Shown here in pieces: positions 56,516-59,837 of a stretch of DNA of 64,000 bases. Source of the DNA: Cellulomonas cellasea (lineage in GTDB: Bacteria > Actinomycetota > Actinomycetes > Actinomycetales > Cellulomonadaceae). The notes below the pieces were generated by a model that was given only the letters and a program-made list of their open reading frames with translations, was not told the origin of the DNA and ran no database searches. Location: assembly GCF_006538745.1 (NCBI RefSeq), contig NZ_BJLR01000041.1, forward strand, positions 1 through 64,000, read 5' to 3'. Made by a program: the position numbers and the translations under genes. The first letter of the stretch is position 1, and every line of letters begins with the position of its first letter.

Positions 56516-57421
56516 TCAGGTGTCGTGCGCGCGCCGGGGCGGGAGCGGGACTCGGTCGAGGTCGTCGGCGGCGGTGATCTGCGCCCCGGGCGCCGCCGCC
56601 CGGGCCTCCTCCAGCAGCGGCGCGACGTCCACGTAGCGCGACGAGAAGTGCGTGAGCACCGTCGTCCGCGCGCCGGACCGCGCCGCGAGCGCGCCCGCCT
56701 GCGCCGCGGTCAGATGCAGGTACGTCTCGGCGAGCTCCGCGGTGTCCGCCCCGAACGTGCTCTCGACGAGCAGCAGGTCGACGCCGTCCGCGAGCTGCTC
56801 CGCGCCCGCGCACTCCGCGGTGTCCATCACCACCGCGACGCTCTGCCCGCGCCGCGCGACGCTCACGTCCGCGAGGCGCACGCCGCGCAGCTCGCCCTCG
56901 CGCTGCAGCCGGCCGACGTCCGGACCGCTGATCCCCGCGGCGGCGAGCCGCTCCGGCACGAGCGACCGGCCGTCGGGCTCGATCAGCCGGTACCCGTAGG
57001 TCTCGATCCGGTGCCGCAGCGCGACGACCTCGAGCCCCTCGGCGATCTCCCCCGGTCCGCCGTGCGGGCGCAGCCGCAGCTCGAGCCCGGGGGTCGCGAG
57101 GCCCACGAGCGCGCGCACGACGTCCTCGCCCGACGCCGGGTAGTGCAGCTCGACGGGACGCTGCACGCCGTCGAGGACCATCCGCGAGAGCACGCCCGGC
57201 AGGCCGTAGCAGTGGTCGCCGTGCATGTGTGTGAGGCAGATGCGCGTGATGGCGGTGGCCGGGACGCCCGCGTGCGTGAGCTGGCGCTGGGTCCCCTCGC
57301 CCGGGTCGAACAGGATGCCGTCCTGGTGCGGCGCGCCGTCCCAGCGCAGCAGGTAGCCGTTGTGGTTGCGGGTCCGGGTCGGCACGTTCGACGACGTGCC
57401 CAGGACGACGAGCTCACGCAC
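56516..57421 (-). CDS. rnz: Ribonuclease Z
   Basis: A 301-residue metallo-beta-lactamase-fold tRNA 3'-endonuclease, which matures tRNA precursors lacking an encoded CCA. The zinc motif HxHxDH is LTHMHGDHCYGLPG (His65, His67, Asp69, His70); further ligands are in VVMDTAECAG and TVLTHFSSRY. N terminus ELVVLGTSSNVPTRTRNHNG is typical of RNase Z. The GTG at 57421 has a GGAGGA SD 6 nt upstream. Confidence 0.93.
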   Translation of the reverse strand: MRELVVLGTSSNVPTRTRNHNGYLLRWDGAPHQDGILFDPGEGTQRQLTHAGVPATAITRICLTHMHGDHCYGLPGVLSRMVLDGVQRPVELHYPASGEDVVRALVGLATPGLELRLRPHGGPGEIAEGLEVVALRHRIETYGYRLIEPDGRSLVPERLAAAGISGPDVGRLQREGELRGVRLADVSVARRGQSVAVVMDTAECAGAEQLADGVDLLLVESTFGADTAELAETYLHLTAAQAGALAARSGARTTVLTHFSSRYVDVAPLLEEARAAAPGAQITAADDLDRVPLPPRRAHDT

Positions 57422-57521
57422 GGGTTCCTCCGGGGTGCGGCCGGACGGGACCGGCACGGGGTGGGTCGAGGTGTGATCGGGCGGCGGTGCGGTGCGGGCG
57501 CCGCTCGGCCGGGACGGGCGA

Positions 57522-57555
57522 GGGGCCCGGCGCACCTGTGTGCGCGCCGGGCCCC
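57522..57555 (-). terminator. Terminator of rtcB
   Basis: Perfect 12-bp stem (57522-57533 with 57544-57555), 10-nt loop, starting 21 nt after the rtcB stop on the minus strand. Confidence 0.85.
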
Positions 57556-57576: not shown

Positions 57577-59748
57577 TCAGCCCTTGACGCAGACGATCGT
57601 CCGCAGCCGCGCCACGACCTCGACGAGGTCGGTCTGCGCCGCGATGACGGACTCGAGGTCCTTGTAGGCCCCCGGGATCTCGTCGACGACCCCGGCGTCC
57701 TTGCGGCACTCGACGCCCGCCGTCTGCGCCGCGAGGTCCTCGACCGTGAACCGCTTCTTCGCCGCGGTCCGCGACATCCGCCGCCCGGCCCCGTGCGACG
57801 CCGACTGGAACGACGCCGGGTTGCCGAGGCCGCGCACCACGTACGAGCCCGTCCCCATCGACCCGGGGATGAGCCCCATCTCGCCGGAGCCGGCGCGGAT
57901 CGCACCCTTGCGGGTGACGATCAGCTCCGCGCCGTCGATCTGCTCGGTCTTGACGTAGTTGTGGTGGCAGTTCCGAGTCAGGATGTTGTCCTCCAGCGTG
58001 AAGGCCTCGGTCTCCGGCACAACGGCGCAGTACACCTCCTCGACGTCATCCGTGATCTCCACGCTTCGGACGGTCCACCCCTTGCGCTCGACCGCGCCGC
58101 GACCCGTGGCGAAGCGCGCTCGATGCTCGTCCTGGACGAAGAAGTCGAGGTCGAGGTCGCTCCGCATGAACCCCATGACGTGCAGCTCCGAGTCGCGCCC
58201 GTCGATACCGCGACGAACCCGTGTGCGGATGCCGTAGGTGCCGACACCGATCGAGGTAGCCAGCGCTTTCACCGCCTCCAGGTGGTCACGTCGCGACGAG
58301 GACAGCGACGGGCGGCCGCTCTTGTCTACGTCACCGTCTGCTGCGAAGTAGCCCGCCAACCAGCCGTAGACGATGTCGGGGTGTGAACTCGTCGCGACCG
58401 GCGCAGTCTTCCACTCCGCGGGGAAGCCGTTGAGCACCTTCACCGAGCCGTAGTCCCGCACGCAGTTCGTCGTCAGACCCTCGAAGTACGGCAGGAGGGA
58501 CTCGTCCTTGTCACCGCAGAAGATGGCTCGGGCGCGGGTCTGCTTGCCGCAGAGCGAGCCGTCGCCGAACACGAAGCCGCGAGCTACCGAAGCTCTGTCG
58601 ACCTTCATCCCGGAGACCCGCGCCGGAAATGCGTAGGCGAGCCGGTCGCCAACACGAAGGTCCTGAGTCGTCGCCTCATCACGCGCATGGGCGACCTTCG
58701 CTCGCAGGAGCCACCGGTGGTTCCCCGTGGCACGGATCACCTTCTCCTCGCCGTAGCGCCCCACCGTCACCTCGTAGACCCGCTGCTTGCCGAAGGACAT
58801 GATCGGCGCCTTGACCCATCGGCCGCCTGTGGTGAGGAGTTCGTGAATGCCGCCCGCGAGCTCGGCGATAGGGAAGATCCCGGCTCCTGTCAGCACACGC
58901 GTCTCGCCCGCGAAGCAGTTCACACCCTCGTCGAACGTGATCTCCCGCTCCGGGAACGAGTCCCGCACGGCCTGCACGACGAGCGCCATCATCACCGCAC
59001 GCGAGCGCGCGGCGTACTCCTGCGCCCACCACAGGTCGTTCAGGTACGCGTCCATCTGCGGCGTCCCGGCCAGGAACACCGCGAGCTCGCGGTCGACGAT
59101 CCGCTGGTTGTGCTCGAGCGTCTTGGCGATCGCGACGTGCCGCTCCGCGAGCTCCTTGCCGATGTTGCGCGAGCCGCTGTGCAGCTGCAGCCACACCTGG
59201 TCGGACTCGTCGAGGCAGAGCTCGATGAAGTGGTTGCCGCCGCCGAGCGTCCCGAGCTGCTTGCGCGCCCGGGCCTCGAGCTGCTGGACCGTGCGGTGCA
59301 GGCCGCCGAAGCGGTCCCAGAACGCGTCGGCACCCTTGAGCCGCTCCCGCCCCGCCGAACCGTTCACCGGCCGGAGCCGGCGCAGGTCGACGGGCTCGTC
59401 GTGCGCGTGGAAGCCCACCGGGACGGCCTGCTCGATGCGCGTGCGGATCGCGTGCAGGTCGTCGGGCAGGTCCGCGGCCGTCAGGCTCGTGCGGACACCG
59501 ATCATCCCGCAGCCGATGTCGACGCCGACGGCGTTGGGGCTGACCGCGTCGCGCATCGCGATGACGCTGCCGACGGTAGCCCCCTTGCCGAGGTGCACGT
59601 CGGGCATCACGCGCAGGCCCTCGACCCACGGCAGCGACGCGATGTTGCGCAGCTGCTGGAGAGCCTGCGGCTCGACCTCGTGCTCGTGGGCCCACATCAG
59701 GGTGGGCGCGGCGGTTCCGGCCAGGGCGACCGGGAACGGGCTGGACAT
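57577..59748 (-). CDS. rtcB: RNA 3'-phosphate ligase RtcB, interrupted by an intein
   Basis: The precursor is 723 residues; removal of the 316-residue intein leaves a 407-residue RtcB, the GTP/Mn-dependent ligase joining RNA 2',3'-cyclic phosphate or 3'-phosphate ends to 5'-OH ends. Extein motifs: VGVDIGCGMIG, GTLGGGNHFIELCLD, LQLHSGSRNIGKEL, VN|CHHNYV (| marks the splice point), and the guanylylated His in SASHGAGRRMSR. All metal and nucleotide ligands appear present. Two ATGs lie in tandem (59751 and 59748); the AAGGAGG SD is 5 nt from the second and 2 nt from the first, so 59748 is chosen. No RtcA or RtcR gene is adjacent. A terminator follows. Confidence 0.96.
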   Translation of the reverse strand: MSSPFPVALAGTAAPTLMWAHEHEVEPQALQQLRNIASLPWVEGLRVMPDVHLGKGATVGSVIAMRDAVSPNAVGVDIGCGMIGVRTSLTAADLPDDLHAIRTRIEQAVPVGFHAHDEPVDLRRLRPVNGSAGRERLKGADAFWDRFGGLHRTVQQLEARARKQLGTLGGGNHFIELCLDESDQVWLQLHSGSRNIGKELAERHVAIAKTLEHNQRIVDRELAVFLAGTPQMDAYLNDLWWAQEYAARSRAVMMALVVQAVRDSFPEREITFDEGVNCFAGETRVLTGAGIFPIAELAGGIHELLTTGGRWVKAPIMSFGKQRVYEVTVGRYGEEKVIRATGNHRWLLRAKVAHARDEATTQDLRVGDRLAYAFPARVSGMKVDRASVARGFVFGDGSLCGKQTRARAIFCGDKDESLLPYFEGLTTNCVRDYGSVKVLNGFPAEWKTAPVATSSHPDIVYGWLAGYFAADGDVDKSGRPSLSSSRRDHLEAVKALATSIGVGTYGIRTRVRRGIDGRDSELHVMGFMRSDLDLDFFVQDEHRARFATGRGAVERKGWTVRSVEITDDVEEVYCAVVPETEAFTLEDNILTRNCHHNYVKTEQIDGAELIVTRKGAIRAGSGEMGLIPGSMGTGSYVVRGLGNPASFQSASHGAGRRMSRTAAKKRFTVEDLAAQTAGVECRKDAGVVDEIPGAYKDLESVIAAQTDLVEVVARLRTIVCVKG
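57970..58917 (-). other. Intein with LAGLIDADG homing endonuclease domain, in RtcB
   Basis: 316 residues, from Cys1 (CFAGETRVLTGAGI) to the final Asn (ILTRN) followed by extein Cys (CHHNY). Splicing block B is ATGNHRWLL with His at intein position 67. Two endonuclease motifs are seen: VARGFVFGDGSL (Asp at intein position 119) and GWLAGYFAADGDVD (Asp at 194), 75 residues apart, so the endonuclease is probably intact. Block F is VEEVYCAVVPETEAFTLED. The residue before the terminal Asn is Arg, not the usual His. GC is lower than in the flanks (63% against 72% on single 60-base lines I counted), a sign of transfer. Confidence 0.95.
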
Positions 59749-59837
59749 CATGACCTCCTTGGGAGAGGCCGACAGTAGGGCGCGGCGCCCACGGGGTCGA
59801 CGTCAATATCGTCCGTCGGCGGCCCGCTGCCCGCGCG

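Follow-up and report, generated by a model that had tools for sequence, protein, structure and literature searches.

A LAGLIDADG intein at the active site of RtcB in Cellulomonas cellasea combines the class 1 residue set with the class 3 triplet

The rtcB gene of Cellulomonas cellasea, as found in a 64,000-nucleotide stretch of contig NZ_BJLR01000041.1 (the window), is split by what appears from its residues to be a complete intein with an intact-looking endonuclease, placed at the active site of the enzyme. Inteins of RtcB are by themselves ordinary, being of a kind already known; this one carries Cys1, TxxH and Cys+1 as in class 1 together with the complete Trp-Cys-Thr triplet of class 3, and belongs to a large family in which the same combination is the rule. 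It is probably a constitutively splicing, class-1-type mobile intein with a LAGLIDADG endonuclease, inserted between Asn278 and Cys279 of RtcB.

Anatomy and insertion site

The features of the precursor gene, all on the minus strand as is its downstream neighbour, are as follows.

57577..59751, minus: rtcB precursor ORF, 724 aa, ATG start (ORF reading and Pfam)
58918..59751, minus: N-extein, residues 1-278, ending ...FDEGVN (alignment to the empty relative L004)
57970..58917, minus: intein, 316 aa, ORF residues 279-594 (alignment, predicted structure)
58915..58917, minus: Cys1, putative class 1 nucleophile (Cys in 150/151 family members)
58711..58728, minus: block B TGNHRW, giving Thr B:7, His B:10 and Trp B:12, the W of the triplet (alignment)
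58069..58590, minus: LAGLIDADG homing endonuclease domain, limits approximate, an estimate (Pfam, structure matches)
58555..58578, minus: first LAGLIDADG motif GFVFGDGS, with Asp119 (Asp in 147/151)
58330..58365, minus: second LAGLIDADG motif GWLAGYFAADGD, with Asp194 (Asp in 149/151)
58027..58029, minus: Cys297, the block F:4 Cys, C of the triplet and the nucleophile of class 3 inteins (Cys in 151/151)
58006..58008, minus: Glu304 at the usual block F His position (His in 109/151)
57970..57978, minus: block G Thr314-Arg315-Asn316, comprising Thr G:5 (T of the triplet), Arg replacing the penultimate His, and the terminal Asn (alignment)
57577..57969, minus: C-extein, 130 aa and stop, starting with Cys+1 of CHHNYV (alignment)
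56516..57535, minus: metallo-beta-lactamase fold gene, RNase Z-like, next downstream, a neighbour outside the intein (Pfam)

A sequence-only reading had already placed a complete intein at 57970-58917, and these coordinates proved exact: 316 residues, Cys first and Asn last, followed by CHHNY. The two LAGLIDADG motifs it described were both found, each with its Asp, and alignment confirmed the block B His, Cys1 and the terminal Asn-Cys; the precursor length of 723 residues that it gave has to be corrected to 724. The lower GC content it had remarked on was borne out as well, at 66.4% for the intein against 71.7% for the extein (window, 74.8%), and at third codon positions 84.5% against 97.8%.

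The host protein is an RtcB RNA ligase: the Pfam RtcB model (PF01139) matches the precursor as two stretches, one on each extein, flanking the intein (1.2e-120), and the protein aligns with solved RtcB. Within the intein LAGLIDADG_3 matches above its cut-off (1.1e-7); the Intein_splicing match in the precursor lies under its own. An AlphaFold2 model from 66 alignment rows (intein pLDDT 94.5, pTM 0.90) is predicted to consist of a splicing domain and a LAGLIDADG endonuclease, with two motifs bearing acidic residues in the right fold. Its best solved matches are full-length inteins with an endonuclease, 7qsu (E 1.2e-14) and PI-SceI, 1lws (E 2.0e-12); the endonuclease dominates the matching, and no class 3 structure is among the 50 structure matches listed. 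Searching the PDB with the window intein as a single sequence gave no match, and a profile search gave weak ones, the best (E 0.004) to an endonuclease stretch.

Alignment of the empty copy L004 as query with solved RtcBs, 1uc2 among them, locates the insertion with respect to the catalytic metals: the His of YDLAHN in the Thermus protein (2epg) and of YDVSHN in human RtcB fall on the third C-extein residue, which is the second His of CHHN. In P. horikoshii RtcB one Mn is bound by Cys98, His234 and His329 (PMC10630183); the second His of CHHN is probably the counterpart of His329, and it is a sound deduction from the insertion site that unspliced RtcB would be inactive (PMC10630183).

Residue sets across the intein family

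Relatives of the window intein had to be sought with an alignment. Used alone as query, it matched in 2 of 396 genomes at the level of its order (own included) and in 7 of 396 at that of its phylum, full length in its own genome, G802 and G551, as well as in one plasmid and in 23 phage records, 6 of them over 80% of its length; in the scans of genome and viral contigs it found no relative, and the six-row alignment A1 was needed there. The best 80 of 126 loci were kept from the A1 scan of genomes, and 79 distinct ones of 140 loci from that of viral contigs. A class-level draw of 394 genomes contained nine (own included) with matches at E < 1e-40 and a tenth with fragments only. The resulting set of 165 sequences including the window's, with the incomplete L204 left out and identical ones merged, comprises 151 distinct inteins, referred to below as the clan.

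In an alignment with class 3 inteins the complete class 3 triplet of Trp, Cys and Thr stands in the window intein at B:12, F:4 and G:5 (numbering of PMC3196547 and PMC5222942). It equally has the class 1 residues Cys1, Thr B:7 with His B:10, terminal Asn and Cys+1, and the presence of Cys1 sets it apart from class 3, in which position 1 holds no Cys, Ser or Thr nucleophile. The plain class 1 anatomy of the sequence-only reading is thus right as to the class 1 residues and incomplete in having missed the triplet and Glu304.

This double endowment is general. Among the 151 members, window included, His B:10, Trp B:12 and Cys F:4 are invariant, Cys1 and Thr B:7 are each present in 150, Cys+1 in 149 and Thr G:5 in 141; Cys1, the His and the full triplet occur together in 141 (77/79 members from genomes, 59/66 viral, 5/6 other). 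The terminal residue is Asn in 147 and Gln in 3, and the endonuclease Asp is kept in 147 (first motif) and 149 (second). Ascertainment bears on these counts, in that all seeds of the family had Cys1, Trp and Cys F:4; of the search patterns, one for genomes fixed Cys F:4, one for viral contigs fixed Cys1 and none fixed Trp, so that two of the three scans yielding loci did not impose Cys F:4. The third scan required neither Cys1 nor Trp nor Cys F:4, although one of its patterns fixes Thr G:5, and provided 27 further distinct inteins, some nearly alike: all 27 have Cys1, HxW and Cys F:4, and 22 have Thr G:5. In the combined 178 distinct sequences, window included, Trp and Cys F:4 are found in 178, Cys1 in 177, and Cys1 with the complete class 3 triplet in 163.

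Each element of the triplet has precedents in class 1. At F:4 Asp is most common and Cys second commonest (PMC4031507), and the class 1 inteins with Cys there are polyphyletic (PMC3196547); Trp is among the residues known at B:12 (PMC7891396), and Thr at G:5 is sporadic (PMC12245125). The invariance of Cys F:4 in the clan, where class 1 most commonly has Asp, suggests that the residue takes part in catalysis and is not a relic.

The assisting histidines are far more variable. The penultimate residue of the 151 inteins, window included, is Gly in 121, Arg in 10 and His in 7, with Arg also in 4 of the 14 other RtcB inteins listed; the block F His is kept in all of those 14, where the window copy has Glu304, and 37 of the 151, window included, lack both histidines. 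Replacement of the penultimate His by Arg had been taken to imply slow splicing. That does not follow: His is rare at this position in the clan, and a phage intein whose penultimate residue is Gly spliced far more slowly once this was replaced by His, other inteins responding otherwise (PMC5050341). Since most of the clan lacks the penultimate His its absence carries no signal, and the idea of Arg315 as a special defect was dropped. With neither the penultimate nor the block F His, C-terminal cleavage of the window intein could possibly be slow.

Hosts, empty sites and genome context

The clan occupies several kinds of site: 69 of the 151 lie before a C-F/H-G/S-C motif of DnaG-type zinc fingers, 15 before CHHN and 67 elsewhere, 64 of these last being viral. 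Pfam recognises DnaG in the C-exteins of 4/4 members tested, all split at the same zinc-ribbon place, and RtcB in 3/3 tested; the zinc finger of C. cellasea's own DnaG is uninterrupted. The CHHN group consists of the window intein and L065-L078, so that a related intein, with 50-57% amino acid identity, occupies this site in at least 14 more RtcB genes. From their genus names we take 12 of the 14 listed hosts to be actinobacteria; the other two are a Frankiales MAG and, by contig label, a Candidatus Contendobacter MAG (L075), presumably a gammaproteobacterium. Identity between inteins exceeds that between N-exteins in 93 of the 105 pairs among the 15 listed RtcB hosts; this, and a gammaproteobacterial host, are what lateral movement is expected to give. 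With the five hosts that have the most window-like RtcB the order is reversed, intein identity being below N-extein identity, a pattern that fits common descent as well.

Certain relatives have departed from the usual arrangement. A 358-aa ORF of Rhodococcus sp. Leaf247 (L080) encodes a stand-alone protein related to the RtcB inteins. Its position 1 is Gly, its terminal residue is Asp and a +1 nucleophile is missing, yet both endonuclease motifs are kept; it is apparently a decayed or emancipated intein. In the viral ORF L174 (IMGVR_UViG_3300045256_000188, residues 233-925), presumably a ribonucleotide reductase, two full-length clan inteins, 49% identical, abut with no extein residue between them, such that Cys1 of the second is the +1 residue of the first; more intein-like segments are present in the same ORF. 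On Skermanella rosea plasmid pSR-4 (L035) a clan intein splits a DnaG-like zinc-finger stretch (PF01807 under cut-off) in a protein annotated as a MobF relaxase, and in L030 one splits a cytidine/deoxycytidylate deaminase (PF00383 on the N-extein).

Phages often carry RtcB, and the precursor has matches in 639 phage records. In none of these does a single place cover 80% of the precursor, so no phage RtcB with a recognisable copy of the window intein was seen among them; a phage origin of the window RtcB was discarded.

The comparison of rtcB in relatives proposed in the sequence-only reading turned up empty sites throughout. A search of 59 relatives' genomes, own included, found RtcB in 25: its own, 23 with a full-length gene and one with a fragment; all 23 full-length genes are uninterrupted at the site. 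Within the genus 4 of 6 other genomes have an RtcB, and the true counterpart is in only one of them, G003; this gene (L004) is 97.8% identical in amino acids over 408 aa to the window RtcB and has an intact ATN-CHHNYVKKE site without intein, whereas the other three, about 45% identical, are of another type. Over 1227 positions the window gene and L004 show 53 differences, 20 of them in the densest 136-base stretch, from -31 to +104 around the insertion site; a uniform shuffle reaches such a density in 5e-5 of trials, for a stretch length picked after seeing the differences. The 200 bases lying within 100 of the site hold 20 differences and the remaining 1027 hold 33 (Fisher 9.6e-5). Nine hand-picked outgroup RtcBs of the same type served to polarise the differences: of the 20 close to the site, 10 are derived in L004, 1 in the window and 9 are unclear; for the 33 elsewhere the figures are 9, 9 and 15. 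We therefore read a short diverged patch at the site in the empty copy, which could have come from intein loss through exchange with a diverged copy or could represent an allele escaping the endonuclease.

Residue +1 may itself restrict the range of hosts. It is Cys in both the window RtcB and L004, and in all 11 RtcBs of the other type (42-46% identity), while the 11 other RtcBs of the window's type (63-83% identity) have Val in 10 cases and Cys in one (L003); if, as is likely, the intein needs Cys+1, it would be shut out of most RtcBs of that type.

The earlier observation that no RtcA or RtcR gene lies nearby holds for RtcA, which like Archease was not found in the whole C. cellasea genome (PF01137 and PF01951). 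The protein encoded downstream of rtcB matches Lactamase_B_2 over its cut-off and the tRNase Z model PF13691 under it; we read it as RNase Z. An RNase Z-like gene also lies about 1 kb from rtcB in L004, where the intervening region (L004:2632-3800) holds an extra gene and a degenerate second rtcB 3' end.

Splicing routes, origin and comparison with known inteins

On the reading we prefer, the intein would excise itself from the translated protein, ...EGVN being ligated to CHHNYV and the metal-site region so restored, and active RtcB would then form without another factor. Cys1 would attack the N-terminal junction, with block B Thr and His assisting; the acyl group would move to Cys+1, and Asn316 would cyclise. 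Homing by the endonuclease and horizontal spread would sustain the element, host benefit not being required. Retention of Cys1, TxxH and Cys+1 makes class 1 chemistry the most likely, and we infer that splicing occurs, that Cys1 is the first nucleophile and that the predicted endonuclease cuts. Conservation of the nucleophiles and of the endonuclease Asp is as expected from selection on splicing and homing; together with the empty relatives and the signs of lateral spread, the kept endonuclease residues fit an ordinary mobile element.

What counts against plain class 1 splicing is that Trp B:12 and Cys F:4, unneeded for its chemistry, are invariant in the clan. They would be accounted for if the acyl group reached Cys F:4, either directly by the class 3 route, Cys1 being dispensable, or by a relay from Cys1 through Cys F:4 to Cys+1. 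Such a two-nucleophile route draws on the presence of Cys F:4 and Trp B:12 in 151/151 and 27/27 inteins (Thr G:5 in 141/151 and 22/27), Cys F:4 having been fixed by a pattern in one scan of the three and Trp in none, and on Asp being the most common class 1 residue at F:4 (PMC4031507). We nonetheless judge it unlikely: the TxxH block B and Cys+1 are as in class 1, the +1 residue of class 3 being mostly Ser or Thr (PMC5222942); the triplet residues are each known singly in class 1 (PMC4031507, PMC7891396, PMC12245125); Cys1, almost never lost (177/178), seems needed; and grafting the triplet onto gp41-1 while removing its Cys1 gave no splicing (PMC7664689). It is accordingly a tentative suggestion that in a large clan borne by phages and actinobacteria Cys1 and Cys F:4 work in one active site, the N-extein being passed through three cysteines.

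The sequence-only reading had instead proposed that RNA repair is gated by splicing, redox, metal or temperature change slowing it and thereby switching RtcB on or off. The F:4 Cys lends this some plausibility, since the M. smegmatis DnaB intein, of class 3, is inhibited by H2O2 acting on its catalytic F:4 Cys (PMC6195587). Nothing indicates retention for regulation, however: 23 relatives have rtcB without the intein, its endonuclease motifs are kept, and the missing penultimate His, being missing from most of the clan, says nothing. The proposal is unsupported and gating very improbable; empty relatives, a kept endonuclease and signs of lateral spread fit an ordinary mobile element. Scarcely to be expected, too, is an impaired or decaying intein that splices poorly for loss of both assisting histidines and leaves little active RtcB. 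The window copy is indeed the only one without the block F His among the 15 listed RtcB-hosted inteins, and L080 is an example of a decayed relative; but 37/151 members do without both histidines, the ORF is open, and all nucleophiles and the endonuclease Asp residues are in place.

For the relation to class 3 we built a tree on 143 splicing-domain columns, with the signature columns and position 1 removed, from 135 taxa, made up of 98 clan members out of the 151, 23 inteins of class 3 and 14 others, these last a thin sample. Class 3 forms a clade at 100/100 with the window intein outside, and the notion of the clan as class 3 inteins with a stray Cys1 was rejected on that ground. The clan groups at 91.1/98 with five ribonucleotide reductase inteins, four of them of phages (two of the five we take to be such on our own reading); two, L281 and L282, likewise have Cys1 and the triplet, and two others have Phe or Tyr for Trp. 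The RtcB inteins cluster at 97.8/96, a cluster that takes in L080. Trees constrained to unite the clan with class 3 pass the AU test (p 0.43 and 0.50), such that a sister relation is neither supported nor rejected, and the triplet may be shared by common origin or by convergence.

The triplet is stated in PMC7664689 to occur only in class 3, and failure of the gp41-1 graft is argued there to mean that class 1 could not give rise to class 3; gp41-1 has also been proposed as a transition form (PMC12245125), and PMC3196547 recounts an earlier proposal of an ancestor in phages whose first nucleophile had been lost. Neither this clan nor inteins of RtcB turned up as the subject of a paper in the open-licence literature searched; part of the clan may have been noticed, since class 1 inteins with Cys F:4 were known to the authors of PMC3196547. 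Natural inteins with both residue sets are the right material for testing the step from class 1 to class 3: removing Cys1 from a clan intein asks directly whether it is possible. They also warn against assigning class 3 by the triplet alone.

Among known systems, the NCBIfam models NF052663 (RtcB_rel_intein2) and NF038162 (RtcB_rel_intein) likewise describe inteins of RtcB-family proteins, at other sites by the coordinates of their best stretches on L004: that of NF052663 starts at Cys81 of DIGCGM, placing its insert before Cys81 (DIG|CGM), and that of NF038162 places it before residue 157, whereas the window intein precedes Cys279; the precursor scores 419.6 bits against an NF052663 cut-off of 1050. 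The DnaG inteins of actinobacteria and sphingomonads and the phage inteins of the clan (L028, L029, L079-L144, L145-L223) share the signature residues and about 29-48% identity over full length with the window intein, in different host proteins and sites. With class 1 LAGLIDADG inteins such as PI-SceI and TliVMA it has in common Cys1, the TxxH block B, terminal Asn, Cys+1 and the nested two-motif endonuclease; unlike them it has Cys F:4, Trp B:12, Thr G:5, and Arg and Glu at two usual His positions. Class 3 is represented by the mycobacterial DnaB1 intein (6bs8, 6rix), which the class 3 reference L226 matches, and in C. cellasea itself by the intein (L248) of its Pfam-identified DnaB (G000:C13:145795-146823; Ala1, HEW, Cys F:4, PTHN before Ser), by which both kinds of intein occur in one cell. 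These share Trp B:12, Cys F:4 and Thr G:5 at alignable positions; unlike them the window intein has Cys1, a position filled by Ala, Gly or Asp in the 23 references of class 3, has Cys+1 and lacks the penultimate His. Like the window intein, gp41-1 is a class 1 intein with the class 3 feature Thr G:5, but its block F has Asp, whereas in the window intein the whole triplet is natural.
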